Of a stretch of 64,000 bases of DNA, positions 11,732 to 64,000 are shown in pieces. The translations under genes were made by a program, and so were the position numbers. The notes under the pieces are model-generated. The model saw only the letters and a program-made list of their open reading frames with translations, was not told the origin of the DNA and made no database searches. The DNA comes from Chlorella sorokiniana (lineage: Eukaryota > Chlorophyta > Trebouxiophyceae > Chlorellales > Chlorellaceae): NCBI GenBank assembly GCA_025917655.1, contig CP084617.1, positions 1,240,001 through 1,304,000 of the forward strand. The letters are read 5' to 3'. The first letter of the stretch is position 1. Each line of letters opens with the position of its first letter.

Positions 11732-14700
11732 TCAGTACTGCCCTCCATACTGGCCTCCGTACTGGCCGGAGCTGCCACCGTACTGCTGTTGGCCGCCATA
11801 CTGCTGCTGCCCGCCGTACTGCTGCTGCCCACTGCCGTACTGCTGCTGCCCGCCCATGAGCATGCCCTGCTGCTGAGGCTGGGCCACCATCATCTGGGGA
11901 CCGGCGCCCTGCTGCGCCAGCATGGCGCTGCCGCCCATCTGCTGCGCTTGCTGCGCCCGCTGTGCCTGCTGCATCATCAGCATCTGCTGCTGCGCCAGCA
12001 GCACGGCCTGCTGGTCAACCACCAGCCCTCCCTGCAGCATCACCACCTGCTGCGGCTGCTGCGCCACAGACATCATGGGCTGCTGGCCGCCCAGCTGCAG
12101 GGAGGCCGCAGGAACCATCATCCCCGGCTGCTGCATCGCCACCAGCTGCGCCTGGCCCCCAGGCATCCCGCCAGACACGACGAGCCCGCTGGGCTGCGCC
12201 GCCGCCAGTCCGGGCCCCATAGGCCCCCCTGCTGCGCCGGCATGCCGCCGCCGCCCATGGGCCCACCACGGGGCCGTAGTCACCGCCGCCTTGGCCGCGG
12301 TGGCTGGCAGGGAAATCTGGCTCCCGGGGCCCAACCTGCATGCCAGGGCCGCCACCCGGGTAGGGCCCGGGCCCGCCACCGCCACGGCGGTCATACCCAG
12401 GGGCCGCATCAAAGCGGCCGCCGGGAGCGGGCGGTCCCAGCCGGGCTCGCCTCGCCACGGCCCGCCCCTGGGGCCACCAGGGCCCCTCCCCTGCGGACCG
12501 CCAGGGCCACGCCCGCCGGCATGGAAGCTACGGTCGCGTGGGGGCGTGGGCCAGCCACCCGGGGAGCCAGCGGCCCGCGCTCCCGCCCAAACGGTGGCCC
12601 GCCACCGCGCCCGCCAGCGCCAGCCGGGCCGCGGCGTGGACCTTCGTCGCGGTACCGCTTCTCCGCGCTGCCGGTCTGCGCTGCGCCGGCATCGCGCTCG
12701 CGCTTGCGGCTGTCGATGCCGGCCGGGCGCCGGCCTTGGCGGCAGCCACCGCCTTCTTGCGGCGCAGGGCGGTGTTGACGTCAAACAGGAACGGCAGGAA
12801 GCCGCCCGGGGCAGCTCGCCCTGCTTCAGCAGGAGCTCCAGCTTGGATGCGGCGTCGCCAAACGCAGCCCGGACCTGCGCAGGTGAAGCAGACAAACAAA
12901 AAGAATGAATCGTTGTGCAGGGTTGATGAGGGCCATTTGCTGCGCCTTCGAGCAGCACAGAGCCGACAGCACTGGCGCTGGCCTGCAGCGAGGCATTTTC
13001 GCCGGCTTGCCTGGTTGATGCGGTGGCTGCCAGACGCCACATCGCGCCCAGTCAAGGGATCCTCCACGCACAGCCGCACCGGCGCGCGCGTCAGCGGCGC
13101 TACACCCTCCGCGCCGCGGCGGCCTTGGCACGCGCCGCCTCGGCTGCCCGCGCCGCCAGCGCCCGCACCCGAGACCTCCTTCTTTGGCACCACGCCGCCC
13201 TGGTTCACAGACACTGCCTGGTTCTGCGGTTGATGGGCAGGCACAAGGGTTGGCAGAGTTCAGCAGGCAAACCATGAAGCAGGCAGAGGCAGTAGCGTGT
13301 GCATCAGCAGGGCAGGCAACAAGTGCCAGGGATGGCCATGGACAGGTGCTGCCCAGCATCGCACTGGAGGACGTCATGCAGGGCCATCACCCACCTCCAG
13401 GTCAAACACGCGGCCGTAGTACTTGAGAAAGCCGAGAAGAAGGTGGCCGGCGTTGGCCACCGGCAGCGACGCCTTGCGCTGCTCCTGCAGCAGGGCCACC
13501 GCCATGGAGCACAGGGCCCACGTGCTGCGAGGATGGGGGCAAGGGGTGGGGAAGGGGTGGGGAGGGGCGGGAGTTGAAAAGTTAATGACTTTGCACAGGC
13601 ATTAAGCAGCGCAAGGTCACGGGTGGCATGCGCCCATGCACGCATACAAACAAGCCCGGGGCCCTCCAACAATTGCGATGCTGTGGCGGAGGCTCGAAGA
13701 GTGGCAACCGCACGCCCGGCGCACCTCAGCCCGCCCATGGCCGCGTCGCCCAGCCGCAGCTCCTGCAGCAGCGCCCTGAGGGCGCAGCACAGCGGGCGCA
13801 GCACGGGAAACTCCTCGCAGCGCGCCTTGAGCCAGGCGGCGGCGCGGGGCCCCACGTCGCTGTTGATGCAGATGTCGAGGCGCACGCCCAGCGCGCTCTC
13901 GGCCTGCGCGTGTGGGCGGGGGGGGCGTGCTGGTTGAGCGGCGTTGCGAAGGTGTGAGACGAGCTGAACAACTATCCCAGGCCAAGGATAATTAACAGCG
14001 CCGACTCATGAAGCCCGTGGCACGTGGCTTGTGCAGGCCCGGCAGCGCAAACAGCTGTGCGGCAGAATGGACGCCCAACGCAGCAGGGCGGCAAGCAAGC
14101 GCTCACTTTGATGATGGGCACGCGGGCGTTGAAGATGATGAGGGGGCGCTTGCGCACCGCACCCTGCTCCTGCGCTCAGCGGGCGGGAGCACAGCGGGCA
14201 GCTCGTGAGCGCAGGATGAGCAGGGTGGCCGCGCACGCAGCGGGAGGACGCAGGCGCAGCCAAGGGGCCCGAAGACCATCACCATCGCAAGCCAACAGGA
14301 TCCAGCGCCCCCACCCTCCAACCCACACATACACACACACACACACACGCGGTGCCCTGACCCACCAACCTGCAGCTTGGTGCTCAGCGACTTCAGCATC
14401 GGCCCCAGCAGCTCCTTCTGCTCACTGGTGAAGCCTGCAGGAAGGGGAGGGCAGGTTGGGATGCCGCCCTTCAGCACAGCTGGCAGCGTGCACTCTTGAA
14501 GCCTGCCACGCAGCCTGACGCACAAAGACCATGCTGCCTCCTTCCCCCCTCAGGCAGCGAAGGCGTCTGACAGCTTGCGCCGCCGAGCAGAGAGCACGTG
14601 CGACTGCTGCAGAAGAGTTGCAGGAAGCTCTGTCGGGTCACCTCCGCCGCGGGCGATTGGCGTCATCAGGCCTGTGCACACGACGTCCAGGTCGGCCCCA

Positions 14701-57632: not shown

Positions 57633-58454
57633 TCAGCCTCGGCCCCTGCCGGCTCGCTGCGGCGAGCCTTGCGCCTGCAGCTGCCGCAGGTAGTCGTCGT
57701 AGCGCAGGATGGTGAAGGGGCGGGGGCGGCAGGGGGTTGGCGTCCCTGCGGGCGCCCTGCTGGCGGCCAGCGAGCGTTCCAGGTCTGCTGCCAGCTGGCG
57801 GTTGTTGCCAGCGCAGCGCGGGGCCAAACCAAACGCGGGGCCGCCCGCCGCGGCAGCGGTGGCCGACGCCAGAGAGCCCCTAGGTGGTGGATGCGTGTGC
57901 AGCGGTAGTCGATGTGGGTGGCGCCGCTGCAGCCCTGCAAGCTGCCGGGCAGGGCGGCGGCGGCCGCCGCCTCGCGCGCTCGCTGCACGCCACGACGCCG
58001 CGCCGCCGCCGTGGCCACCTGCCGCTGCTCGTAGGCGGCCGATGCGGATCGGGAGCGCTGCGCCGCCACCAGGCTGACCTGCTTCTGGCGCTGCAGCCGC
58101 TGCGCGCTCCTCCGCTGCAATGCGCTTCAGCTCTTGCTGCCGGGCGGCCAGCGCCGCTGCGTGGCGCTCCACCGCCGCCACCTCCAGCTGCTGCCGCCGC
58201 CGCTCCTTGGCTTCTTGCAGCGCAATGCGCTCTGCTTGCGTGTGGAGGGCCCGCTGCCTTGCCAGGCGCTCCTGCTGCCGCTGCTCAGCGGCAGCCAGGG
58301 CCTCCAGACGCGCCTCCTCCGCCGCACGCTGCTCCGCCTCTGCTGCCGCCCGCTGCCGCGCATCTGCCAGCTCTTTCGCAAGTATGCTCCTGTAATTCTG
58401 CAGCTGCGCTCGGGTGGCGGCTCGTTGCTGCTCCAGGGCGGCCTGGCGACTCAT
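57633..58454 (-). CDS. Coiled-coil protein of unknown function
   Basis: I do not recognise the family. ATG at 58454 (MSRQAALEQQRAATRAQLQ) opens a nearly intronless reading frame. Residues 1 to about 120 form one long charged helix rich in Arg, Glu, Gln and Ala (AEEARLEALAAAEQRQQERL, ERIALQEAKERRRQQLEVAA). A middle part reads better in a second frame (ALPGSLQGCSGATHIDYRC), and the end returns to the first frame with NRQLAADLERSLAASRAP and FTILRYDDYLRQLQAQ. The frame switches are probably missed bases in G/C runs. Helices like this occur in cytoskeletal, basal-body and flagellar proteins, but nothing specific supports that. Divergent from the AEC-MORN gene with only about 210 bases between starts. 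Confidence 0.6.
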   Translation of the reverse strand: MSRQAALEQQRAATRAQLQNYRSILAKELADARQRAAAEAEQRAAEEARLEALAAAEQRQQERLARQRALHTQAERIALQEAKERRRQQLEVAAVERHAAALAARQQELKRIAAEERAAAAAPEAGQPGGGAALPIRIGRLRAAAGGHGGGAASWRAASARGGGRRRPARQLAGLQRRHPHRLPLHTHPPPRGSLASATAAAAGGPAFGLAPRCAGNNRQLAADLERSLAASRAPAGTPTPCRPRPFTILRYDDYLRQLQAQGSPQRAGRGRG

Positions 58455-58665
58455 TGGTGCTGAGCGATGTTTGACCACGGTGAAACTGAGCTGCAGCTAT
58501 TGATCGCCGATTGAGGTTACATTGATGTATCGGTGGTATGTGTCGGACATCCAATGCAGTTCAGCTGGAGGCAACAGCCACGGATGTAGTGCTCAATGTA
58601 CTTCCCGCTCTCACATGACTCCTCCTCAGCCGCGACACGCGACACCCCCATCGTCCCACAATGCC

Positions 58666-61600
58666 ATGCAATCTACGGTAGCAGCTGTGGCCGGCGCAGT
58701 GCAGCCTTTGGCTGCCGTGGGCTTGGGGTTCTTGCTGCGGCGCACTCGGCTGTTCAGCGCCGGTGATGGCGAGGTGAGCGATCCATGCTGGGCGCAGGAC
58801 CCTTTACACGTTGTCACAGCGTCCTAACTCGCGTTGCATGCTGTGATGGCCCCCACAACCTGCCGCAGACGGCCGCCAAGTTCGCTGTCTGGATCACCCT
58901 GCCCTCGTTGATCCTCCAAAGCTTCAATGGGTGGGTGCAGCCCCGGCCGAGGCAGATGCCCAGCACCATCCCACCGCCTGCCCTGCCACCCGCACCATCC
59001 CAAACCCCACAACTGCGCCCGGCCGCTGCCTTGCAGCCTGTCACCCGCCGACATCCAGTGGCCCGTCATCCTTGTATCCCTTCTAGTCACCGCCGCCTCG
59101 GCGGCCCTCAGCTGGCTGCTCTTCCGCACGCGGCACCCAAAGGAGCGCGGGCTGCTGGCGGGCGCCGCGGGCGGCGGCGCCGCGCTGCCGCTCGCCGCCT
59201 ATCCGCTGGCCGCGGCCGCCTTTGGCGCCCCCGGCCTGCATGTCGCCCTGCTGGCGGGCGTCACAAACGCGCTGGCCACCTGGGTGCTGGGCTACCTGCT
59301 GTTCTCCACCGCGGGGGCAGCCTTCCCGGAGCGGTACGAGCACCTGGACGGCGGCACGTACCGCGGCGAGTGGCTGGGCATGCTGAAGCAGGGCTACGGC
59401 GTCTACACCTACCCCTCTGGCGCGCGCTACGAGGGTGAACCCCGCTGCAGCAGCGGTGGCCTGCCGGCTGGTTGCATGTTGTGCAGAGTGCGGCAGCGGC
59501 GGCGGCTGGCTGCTGCCCGGTGCCAGGCTGGCGAGGTGCCTTTGGGCTGCATGCACAAGGCCTCCCTGCTGCCTGCTGGTGCAGCCCTGCTTGCAGCGTT
59601 CGCGGGCGTTGTCATACCACAGACTCGAGCCTGTGGCATGCTGGCAGCTGCTGCACCCGCTGCTGCTGCGGCCCAAGTGCTGGGGGCAGCTGCTGCCGCT
59701 TTCCAACCGCCAACCCCTGCCCGGCCTCCGCGCTGGCCCCCGCTGCAGGCGAGTGGCACAACAACGCGAAGCAGGGGCGGGGGTGTACCGCTTCCCCAAG
59801 GGCGGCGTGTACGAGGGGGAGTGGCGCGGCGGGCGCATGGACGGCGTCGGGCGTGCGCACCTTGCCAGCGGCCGGGTGCAGGTGGGTGGGTGGGCAAGCA
59901 GTAAGCCGGCGACCCTGCTTGCATCTGCTAGTGTGTGCGAGTGTGTGGTGGTGGTGGGGGAAAGGGGCGGGGGAGGGGGCGGGAAGCCGGTTGCTGCATC
60001 GCATGCAGCCAGTGTGTGTGTGGGGTGGAGGGGGCGAGCGAGCTGGGGCGCCTGGGGAAGACGTCCTGATTGGTAAGACGTCCTGACGGGCGCGCTTCTG
60101 CCGTGTGGTGCCTGCACAGGCGGGCGTGTGGCGCGAGGGCAAGCTGGCGGCGGAGATGGAGGAGTGGCAGTGCGTGCTGGCGGTGGAGGGCGCCAGCGAG
60201 GCGGCGGCCGTGGCGCGCAGCGTGCAGGTCGGCGGCGGCACCGCCGCCGACGCCGCCGCGCAGCTGGCCGCCGACCCGCCCTGCTGGGCGTACGCGGCGG
60301 CGGCGGCGCTGGCGCTGGCCGGGCGCCAGCTCACGCCCACGCTGCACGCCGTGACGGCGCCCCTGGCGGCGGCGCACGCCCGCTGGCGCTGCTTGCCCTG
60401 GGCATGTCGCTGGTGGACCCTGTGCCGCCGCAGCCCCGGCAGGTGCGGTGTGGGCCTCGGCACGCGCTGAACTCAGGCCGGGCAGCTGGCTGCCGGCACA
60501 AGCTGCCTGGTTCCTGGCGCTGCCTGCGAGCGCTCCTGCGCCGAGGCAGTGCTGCTGCTGCTCTCGCCTTTGCACACTTGCATGCACGAGCGCACTTGCG
60601 CTGCAGGCAGCGCTGCTCTCGCATCCTGCGCTCGCATCATGTGCACCCCCTGCATCACCCTGCACGCGCCCGAGTCTGCCCGATGATTACGAAACGCACC
60701 GGAAGAGCAAATCTTTGTGGATGGCTGAGCTGCGGAGCGCGGCCCCGCGCCCCGCCGGCGTCTCCTGGCTCGCCCTCCCATTCCCCCCAGCCGCCCGCCC
60801 CCTGCCGCCTCCCACACTCCATCCCCACCCTCGCCGCCCGCCACCCCGCCCGCCGCCGCTCCCGCCTCCCCCTCACCACCCGCCTCCCACCCCGCCCCTC
60901 CTGCTGTTCCGCCATCCCCACCCGCCTCGCCTCCACCCCACCCTCCCCCAAGCCGCGGGTACCGCGGGGCCGTTGCGGCGGCTCAGCCGCTCGGTGACCC
61001 GAATTCTATGAAATCTGAGGGCAGACCTCGCGCACCCTGCACCACCAGCACCGCATGCGGCCTCTGCAGCAATGCCGCTGCACGCCCTGCATCCCCGCTC
61101 GCTCTCGCTGCATCTGCACAGCGCAAGTATCTTCACATCGCTCTTCTTTCTACTCCCCACCATCACACACCCACACCCACATCTAGTCGGCTGCCCCCGC
61201 TCCGCCGCCGCAGGCAGGGGCGACGTGTCCGCCGTCCTCGCACTGCGCCTGCTGCCCCCGCTGCTGGCGGCCGTGGCGGCGGCCGCCCGCGCTGCCGCGC
61301 CTGGCTGGCTGGAGCGCGGCGCAGGCGCTTGCGCTGGTGGGCCCGCTGCTGCTGTGCGGCGTGGCACCCGCACCCCCAGGTGAGCTTGCTGCGCTGCTCG
61401 AGAGCTCGGTTGAGGGCTGGCTTTGGGTGTAGCGCTGCGCGCCGGCCTTTCCAAAGTGCCGCATTCGTGTGCAGCTCTGTTTGGCGGCTGAGGCAGAACA
61501 AAGATCTGGCAAACACACCGACTGCCAACCTGCGCTGAAATTGAGGCCCTCGTCCCGCTGAGCCTGCTGAGCCATGCTGCAACCCCTCCTCTCCAATAAC

Positions 61601-62321
61601 TGCCTCTGCGCAGGTGCTGGCCAACGCGCACCGCTTCCGGCTGAACGAGAGCCTGGCCGCCGCCATCACCTGGGCAACCACCGCCTGGGGCCTGGTGCTC
61701 ATGCCACTGCTGGCGGCGGCCGCCACCGCCTCCGCGGCTGCGGGCAGCGTGCTGCCCTTCCAGCTGGCGGCGGGCGGCGCCGCGGCGGCAGCAGCGGGGG
61801 TGGCGGTTGTGGGTGCGCTGCAGGGGCAGCGGGAGACGAGGAGCAAGGTACGGATGCGGTACGACCCGGCCGCCGCTGCCGCCAAACCCGCCGCCGACAG
61901 CAGTGCGGGCGGTGCATCATCGCCCGCAGCGGCAGCGCCCGCAGCTGCGGCGGCAGCAGGGGCAGCAGGATCTGCAGCGGCGGCGGCTCCTACCCCAGAC
62001 GGACCGGAGGAGGCGCAGGGGAGCAGCAGCGGCAACGGCAGCGGCGAGCGCTCGGCAGCAGGCGGCGAGGCCGGCGATCCGCCGCAGCCACCGCCGCCGC
62101 GACGGCCTTCAGCCTTCAAGGATGTGGGGCGGGAGCAGCAGCAGCAGCGCCGCAGGCGCCCAGGCGCTGCGCAGCAGCAGGTGCAGCGGGCGGCTGCGGT
62201 GGCGGCAGCCTCGCAGCTGGCGGGCGCCGACTGTGCAGGCTGTGATGCCTGGCAGCCGCCCTGCGGGCTTTACGCCGGCGCGCCTTGTGCTCCTCTGACC
62301 AGGACTGCCAGATCCTTGTAA
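58666..62321 (+). CDS. AEC (auxin efflux carrier-like) transporter with MORN repeats in its central loop
   Basis: Exons: 58666-58773, 58869-58930, 59037-59434, 59749-59881, 60120-60442, 61214-61379, 61614-62321. Five N-terminal membrane helices match Mem_trans/AEC (PF03547): PLAAVGLGFLLRR, FAVWITLPSLILQSF, VILVSLLVTAASAALSWLLF, ALPLAAYPLAAAAFG and VALLAGVTNALATWVLGYLL. Three to four MORN units follow: GGTYRGEWLGMLKQGYGVY, GARYEGEWHNNAKQGRGVY, GGVYEGEWRGGRMDGVG and ASGRVQAGVWREGKLA. The second half of the carrier then resumes: PLALLALGMSLVDP, SAVLALRLLPPLLAAV, LALVGPLLLCGVAP, HRFRLNESLAAAITWATTAW and a last hydrophobic helix, with a disordered Ala/Gln-rich tail. The MORN block lies where PIN proteins carry their hydrophilic loop, and exon 59037-59434 codes helices and first MORN units together, so it is one gene. 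Missing bases near 59780, 60382 and 61218 restore the frame. Substrate unknown. Confidence 0.85.
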
Positions 62322-62590: not shown

Positions 62591-64000
62591 ATGTCTGCAG
62601 CATCAGGAGAGCAGCCAGCGGCGTCGCAGCAAGCCGCGCAGGAGCCACAGGAGTCGTCCTCCGGCAGGCAGCAGTGGCTGGGCACCACGCCCGAGCACTG
62701 CCAGCAGATGATAGACAGGTCCACGAGCCGCAACCCGATGGTCAAGTTCATGCTGGAGAAGCTGGGAGAGGTGCGATGGCGGCGCCGCTGCCCGCGGCCC
62801 CCTCCTGCCTAAAACCTCAGCCTCCTCCTGGCCGGCTGGCTCACAGGCCTCCTACTTTTCCTTCCCCACCTCGCCGCCCCTTGGTTGCTGTTCCACAGGC
62901 GGGCTGTGCCGTGGGCAAGGACTTTGTGGCGATAGAGAAGTGCGACGCGGAGGTGGGCGGCGGCTTCCGCCCGCCCGACGGCGTCGTCATCTGCCACAAC
63001 CACCTGGCCTCCCAGGCGAGCCCTGCCCGGCCTGGCTGCTTGCCTGAACATGATGCCTCCTGTGCAGCAGCCGCTTATCAGCAAGCCTTTGCCGGTGGCC
63101 ACAGCTGCCGCAGCTCCATCGCCAGAGGTGGCGGCAGCAGCCAGGGTCCCCTCACCAACCCCCATCATCTGACATCCACACTTGACCCTGCATTTCTTTA
63201 GGATAAACATCGCAATATTAATGTACACTACTACTGTCGCTTACGCTGCTTCTCTGGGGGATGCACCGCACCGGGGCTGGGCAGGGTGCTTCCTTTTGGG
63301 GGACGTCGGTGGGGAGTGCGCTCGCCGGGCGCACCTGCCCCGCCGCCCCGCTCCCCACCATCGCTCCTTTCCTCTGCTCCTGCGGCGATCCAAACGAGCA
63401 GGAGGAGATCGACCACGCGCTGACCCATGAGCTGGTGCATGCGTACGATCACTGCCGCGCGAAAAACATCGACTGGACCAACTGCCAGCACCACGCGTGC
63501 TCCGAGATCCGCGCCGCCACGCTGTCGGGTGGGCGCGGCTGTGTGTGTGTGTGTGTGTTGGGGTGGGGTGTGTTTGGGGGCCCCGCACGTGGGGCTGCTC
63601 GAGGCACGAGTGGGCGGTGTCAGCAGCGGCGGGGGCGCTGCTGCCGCTGCGATCGCGGGGGAAGGACGGCAGGTGGGCGCTGCGGCGGCGGCCGCAGGCC
63701 TGCACGGCTGGCACAGCTGCGCACCCTGCGCGGCTGCCTCCCCCTCCCCTCCCACACCGACTCTCTGCCTACCCTGCCTGCTCCCCTGGCTGGTTCCCTC
63801 CGCTGCCGCGAACCCTCTCCCCACCTGCACCACCTCCACCGCCCCACAGGCGACTGCAACTTCAAGCAGGAGCTGCTGCGGGGGCACGTGGCGCTGAGGG
63901 CCCAGTTCCAAAAGTGCGTGCGGCGGCGGGCGGAGCTGTCAGGTGGGCCGTCGGGCGCAGCGGCGGAGCGTGTGGGGCGGCAGGGGGAGGGGAGGGGGCA
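62591..64000 (+). CDS. ATP23: ATP23 metallopeptidase homolog (M76), cut by window end
   Basis: Mitochondrial intermembrane-space protease that matures ATP synthase subunit 6 in yeast and aids Fo assembly. Exons 62591-62770, 62899-63015, 63402-63528, 63850-63942, with at least one more exon past the window. N terminus [14 protein letters not shown] is low-complexity without a clear presequence, as in other ATP23 proteins that use a Cys-rich import route. Family motifs: [32 protein letters not shown], the zinc site [14 protein letters not shown] (His-Glu-x-x-His with the catalytic Glu), [33 protein letters not shown] and [12 protein letters not shown] with its conserved Cys residues. All four exons are in phase. 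The intron after 63015 has a GC donor (GCGAGC). It starts about 270 bases after the AEC-MORN stop on the same strand. Confidence 0.92.

Follow-up and report, generated by a model that had tools for sequence, protein, structure and literature searches.

The window analysed here, a stretch of 64,000 nucleotides of the Chlorella sorokiniana genome (C12:1240001-1304000; the genome searches covered 38.8 Mb in 15 contigs), contains a gene on the + strand in which an AEC-fold membrane carrier is apparently combined with a block of MORN repeats. As modelled, the gene consists of seven exons separated by six introns, all six with GT-AG boundaries, in DNA with 66% G+C across the window and 91% G+C at the third codon position (3170 training codons for codon-usage scoring). 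Directly downstream lies a gene for a Peptidase M76 (ATP23-like; window 62890-63530, +), matched in two exons without stop codons, one intron of which, near 63016, perhaps is GC-AG as judged by eye. On the opposite strand, an open frame (window 57633-58496, -) encodes an Ala/Glu/Arg-rich, coiled-coil-like protein and, also by eye, starts divergently about 200 bases from the start of the carrier. The parts of the carrier-MORN gene are as follows:

58666..58773, + strand: exon 1, start codon and helix 1
58869..58930, + strand: exon 2, helix 2 with the proline found in 28 of 28 bacterial relatives
59037..59434, + strand: exon 3, helices 3-5, half a MORN unit, then the first complete one as far as YEG
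59749..59881, + strand: exon 4, remainder of MORN unit 1, unit 2 and a degenerate unit 3; frame change near 59780
59775, + strand: alternative start of exon 4, with no frame change needed and a shortened repeat
60120..60442, + strand: exon 5, helices 6-7 preceded by an acidic linker and the end of the MORN block; frame change near 60380
61214..61379, + strand: exon 6, helix 8 and the start of helix 9; internal frame changes; the weakest part of the model
61614..61847, + strand: the supported part of exon 7, which completes helix 9 and codes for helix 10 and one more hydrophobic stretch (hydropathy)
61848..62321, + strand: alanine-rich open frame to TAA, coding doubtful; GT at 61848

Exon support and frame changes

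Codon usage clearly identifies the reading frame of exon 3 (score of 28.4 versus -51.8 and -68.0 in the other frames), of exon 5 as far as 60380 (31.1) and of the supported part of exon 7 (61614-61847; 14.3 versus -35.9 and -22.0). An independent codon-frame segmentation called portions of exon 3, of the first part of exon 5 and of exon 7 coding; it recovered fragments of the gene and none of its frame breaks. The score of exon 1 is negative (-11.0), yet it is the highest of the three frames, the profile and Pfam matches start inside this exon, at residues 15-16, and a GT donor is found at its end; exon 2 (-3.0) also scores highest in the assumed frame. Past 60380, exon 5 is ambiguous (3.2 for the frame of the protein, 4.1 and -10.7 for the others), and in exon 6 the codon score favours the assumed frame just slightly. 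Exons 6 and 7 are less well supported than the other exons because, in a six-frame profile scan of the window, exon 7 took the fourth place and exon 6 produced no match. The segment 61848-62318 scores -32.0, versus -37.4 and -33.0 in the other frames, and has a non-coding appearance, so the end of the gene at 62321 is doubtful. A sequence-only reading of this DNA had assigned the gene to 58666-62321: the order of the parts and the exact coordinates of the exon 59037-59434 stand, and the end is the one questioned here by the codon scores.

The assembled gene is not one open frame, given that the frame changes near 59780 and near 60380 and about two more times within 61214-61379. In exons 4 and 5, homology resumes in a different frame only a few bases on, which leaves no room for an intron, and the change in exon 4 is backed by codon usage, which is clear in both parts; the mismatch at the start of exon 6 would disappear with a donor at 60450 (found by eye and unscored). 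When exon 4 starts at 59775, at an acceptor that is poor by eye, the DNA can be read without edits from the ATG across MORN as far as the beginning of helix 7; in this reading, Mem_trans (via the first half) and MORN are both above the Pfam cut-off, and the second half matches the carrier profile described below with 10.5 bits (positions 152-201). If the best splice sites are used, the strict reading ends at 311 residues and lacks MORN unit 2 as well as the second half of the carrier; its product consists of helices 1-5, a single full MORN unit and a tail rich in Arg. Conceivably, splicing or a frame change could yield a five-helix MORN membrane anchor without transport, which the strict reading would fit. 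However, carrier-like sequence and codon bias have been retained in exons 5 and 7, which would be unexpected if they were unused, and we consider such a truncated anchor very unlikely.

The frame changes most likely are base errors in G/C-rich runs because the assumed frames of the exon segments contain zero stop codons and the codon bias and the MORN motifs are intact. As a yardstick, we used 112 exon matches of HSP70 and TCP-1 (19,404 bases), among which one adjacent pair showed a frame change; with two clear changes and about two more in approximately 1.4 kb of exon, the carrier gene is above this control rate, so that both error and decay are in play. If the gene is decaying, it would be a former working MORN-carrier fusion with real frame changes and, at most, a truncated product. 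Such decay is compatible with the presence of at least two unambiguous frame changes, with the loss of MORN unit 2 and the second half in the strict reading, with the loss of conserved residues of the carrier and with the failure of Pfam to detect the second half. By contrast, the absence of stop codons in the assumed frames, the strong codon bias that persists in exons 3, 5 and 7, the fit of MORN units 1 and 2 to the structural consensus, the GT-AG boundaries of six out of six introns and the existence of an HSP70 gene with similar frame changes all argue against decay, which appears possible but doubtful.

The HSP70-family gene in question, L062 (G000:C3:1270200-1273200), has frame changes in G-runs near 1270967 and near 1271080, one of them being that of the adjacent pair in the control and the other seen by eye; these could be either assembly base errors or signs of a broken copy. 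The codon-frame segmentation also flagged two changes elsewhere in the window (- strand, 12644-12860, without an intron-sized gap) and nine in eight of the 14 control loci, all unverified calls.

The carrier halves and the MORN block

The first carrier half, the MORN units and the second carrier half follow each other in this order on one strand, as had been read from the letters and as Pfam and a profile of our own jointly confirm. The spliced exons 1-3 with the start of exon 4 match Pfam Mem_trans with 32.9 bits (3.5e-8; cut-off 25.7), and the whole read-through, with X at the frame breaks, matches with 30.4 bits, the match being confined to residues 16-152; exon 3 alone (the piece 59038-59436) gives 22.0 bits for MORN, just below the cut-off of 22.5, and a weak Mem_trans match (0.013). 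Pfam found no family in the second half alone, in pieces or joined, NCBIfam found none in two proteins including the whole read-through, and a search of solved structures with the single protein returned no carrier, only MORN proteins and one chance match. Since Pfam is blind to the second half, the evidence for it comes entirely from our own profile, and the null result on the joined second half slightly lowered our confidence in the explanation preferred below and slightly raised it in decay.

This profile was made from 28 carriers of bacterial genomes with 15-24% identity to the window protein (28 of 30 loci; L050 and L051, weak partial matches, were omitted). The first half matches it with 48.7 bits (positions 13-152) and the second half, assembled from frames picked by eye with X at the breaks, with 36.0 bits (positions 151-305); we cite bits as the measure because E-values mean little in such small profile runs. 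In 1000 shuffles of each half (986 and 997 listed), the best scores were 13.5 for the first half and 5.8 for the second, and the reversed halves scored -1.7 and -8.2, respectively. The six-frame scan, which involves no choice of frame, places exon 3 first in the window (1.2e-5) and exon 5 second (0.0037), the third place going to the frame that holds exon 1, matched to the wrong half (0.1), and the fourth to exon 7 (0.14). Within exon 5, positions 151-201 (0.0037) and, weakly, 200-215 (1.1) are matched in two frames that meet at 200-201. From these sequence comparisons, we read the second half of the AEC fold as probably present and in order. Hydropathy analysis gives 13 peaks, including a weak peak in the linker and another, rich in alanine, past helix 10, and is consistent with ten helices (5+5) if the two peaks at 96-132 represent a broken helix 4.

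In the whole read-through with X at the breaks, Pfam detects MORN in three stretches (1.5e-10). PMC7725318 (section 33) defines MORN by 23-residue units with GxG, G at position 10 and YEGEW at positions 13-17; two units match this definition fully, unit 2 being read across the frame change, and the flanking ones match it partly. The block accordingly is a half unit followed by two full consensus units and a degenerate unit, so the three to four units initially counted are confirmed as MORN and are reduced to two full ones, with a half before and a degenerate one after them. Among solved structures, the block comes closest to MORN1 proteins, junctophilins and axonemal MORN proteins. A structure model of exon 3, made without an alignment, is uninformative (mean pLDDT of 63.5), showing helices, no MORN strands and a low-confidence helix in the MORN region.

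On the 28-protein profile, the two carrier halves meet at about position 152. With the window protein added, the profile found PIN8 from end to end (2e-33) as well as LYCHOS, PIN1, PIN3 and bile-acid symporters, and in PIN1 the best stretch sets in at residue 469 (profile position 162), past the PIN1 loop. Together, the meeting point and the PIN8 and PIN1 alignments put the MORN block at the position of the PIN loop, where the sequence-only reading had located it. Judged by the charges (+3 after helix 1, +2 after helix 3, -2 after helix 5), the MORN loop would mostly be expected in the cytosol, as in PIN8, the flanks of helices 1 and 3 agreeing with this topology and that of helix 5 disagreeing. 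The claim of one gene, as opposed to two merged ones, is also borne out, exon 3 encoding both helices and MORN, and exon 5 both the end of MORN and carrier sequence.

Relatives and predicted function

A family search of the same genome for the AEC fold found three other loci, on C3, C4 and C7, and a Pfam MORN search listed 10 matches, on C1, C13 and C9; these lists are incomplete inasmuch as the window gene itself escaped the family searches at their threshold. None of the listed MORN matches is near the AEC loci on C3, C4 and C7. At G000:C1:5161409-5164074, MORN units are followed by kinase-like sequence, which, by eye and by its motif, looks like a MORN-PIP kinase. In another search of this genome, with 17 candidates scored, nine of the 14 matches fell in the window gene and the other five covered the MORN part only; none of these matches represents a parent copy of the carrier elsewhere. 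The latter observations speak against an assembly chimera of a carrier gene and a MORN gene, as does the location of both junctions within exons whose frame and codon bias are continuous; no direct point favours a chimera, and we regard it as exceedingly improbable.

Beyond this genome, a plasmid search yielded 20 records, the best place of each falling in the MORN part or at its edges (query 137-250), and a search of a bacterial genome collection yielded one relative, which covers query 161-272, that is, MORN and linker. In viral contigs, the first-half query had no match in the one scan covered out of eight. Among 398 genomes from the phylum of a Thiotrichaceae MAG, at least 90 were matched; in this set, among the matches listed, none jointly covered helix 5 and helices 6-7. 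A literature search, with most subscription journals outside its scope, found no relevant paper that pairs MORN with an AEC-type carrier.

With residues numbered in the protein without MORN, G21, P48, G120, P201, G243 and P271 are retained when compared with the residues that mark the relatives. The helix-4 crossover asparagine, found in 27 of the 28 relatives, is Ala106 in the window protein, G111 (25 of 28) is an alanine as well, and the helix-9 proline (28 of 28) is aligned to alanine, with a proline one residue later, beside a frame break. The asparagine is conserved in the relatives used and is not required by Pfam PF03547. In PINs, it belongs to the crossover motif P(N/Q)x-hydrophobic and binds auxin, and the N117A replacement abolishes auxin transport by PIN8 (PMC9477730). 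On its sequence, the window protein is an AEC-fold protein and not a PIN, and auxin is doubted as its substrate, because the equivalent of PIN8 Asn117 is alanine, so that the PIN crossover motif with the auxin-binding Asn is missing. The label 'PIN-like' that had been given to the carrier finds little or no support in the strict sense, since the asparagine on which auxin transport by PIN8 depends is replaced. A 2014 review reports no PIN sequences in the genomes of unicellular Chlorophyta known at that time (PMC4844313). Transport activity of the predicted carrier is not assured.

On the whole, we think it somewhat probable that the locus contains one gene for a ten-helix AEC-fold carrier with a MORN docking or pairing module in its cytosolic loop and that the frame changes are base errors. 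The AEC fold would be a 5+5 inverted repeat with the MORN block between helices 5 and 6, and the carrier, perhaps, would work as an elevator, similarly to PIN8, with an organic anion, though not auxin, as its substrate. By docking or pairing, the MORN sheet could keep the carrier at a partner protein or a membrane site and, being attached to helices 5 and 6, could bias the elevator towards one of its states.

For the MORN block, a docking or pairing role most likely takes precedence over lipid gating because, according to PMC7725318, vesicles were not bound by TbMORN1 and MORN proteins associate in pairs, the three MORN structures doing so via their C-termini. A mechanism in which the block mainly binds anionic lipid, thereby gating or placing the carrier, is compatible with the same architecture and is favoured by the mildly basic character of the block (14 K+R versus 10 D+E, pI 9.5); moreover, a review describes phosphatidic acid and phosphoinositides as ligands recognised by the MORN domains of junctophilins (PMC9692390), and TbMORN1 interacted with single phospholipids (PMC7725318). 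However, PMC7725318 also reports that TbMORN1 showed no binding to membranes or vesicles, and two to three MORN units provide a small surface. Gating by lipid, as initially suggested, finds weak support at best, and a mainly lipid-binding block seems rather unlikely. With still lower probability, the protein could be a carrier-derived sensor, in which movement driven by the substrate would present or hide the MORN docking surface, the PIN-type asparagine being lost, in an algal parallel to LYCHOS.

A carrier with MORN inside its central loop seems to be an unusual layout. To our knowledge, the control of transport by the central loop of PIN-type carriers is still an open question. A natural relative of PINs with a folded, well-understood repeat in the loop would allow a direct test of elevator control versus placement only, and MORN repeats would gain a transporter among their known uses; the interest would be small if the gene were no more than a fusion that is decaying or private to the species.

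Comparison with known systems

Both halves of the window protein align with the bacterial AEC carriers (PF03547); these, however, have 305-349 residues and a short loop in the 28 proteins used, whereas the loop of the window protein holds MORN. Among proteins with a MORN block, junctophilins and MORN-containing PIP kinases similarly are membrane-associated but are not transporters, and junctophilins have C-terminal membrane helices (PMC9692390). LYCHOS/GPR155 is similar in that a PIN-like carrier domain is fused to further domains, cholesterol binding and mTORC1 regulation being reported for it in PMC12716839. In LYCHOS, 7TM and DEP domains follow the carrier, in contrast to the window protein with MORN inside the carrier; Pfam matched neither domain in the read-through, which ends just past helix 10.

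Canonical PIN loops are phosphorylated. PINs have the crossover Asn that is replaced by Ala in the window protein. The structures of PIN1, PIN3 and PIN8 have the AEC fold with ten helices and a loop where the insert sits, as here; in PIN8, whose topology is given in PMC9477730, this loop is disordered, with 39 residues unmodelled, whereas in the window protein the loop is occupied by MORN.
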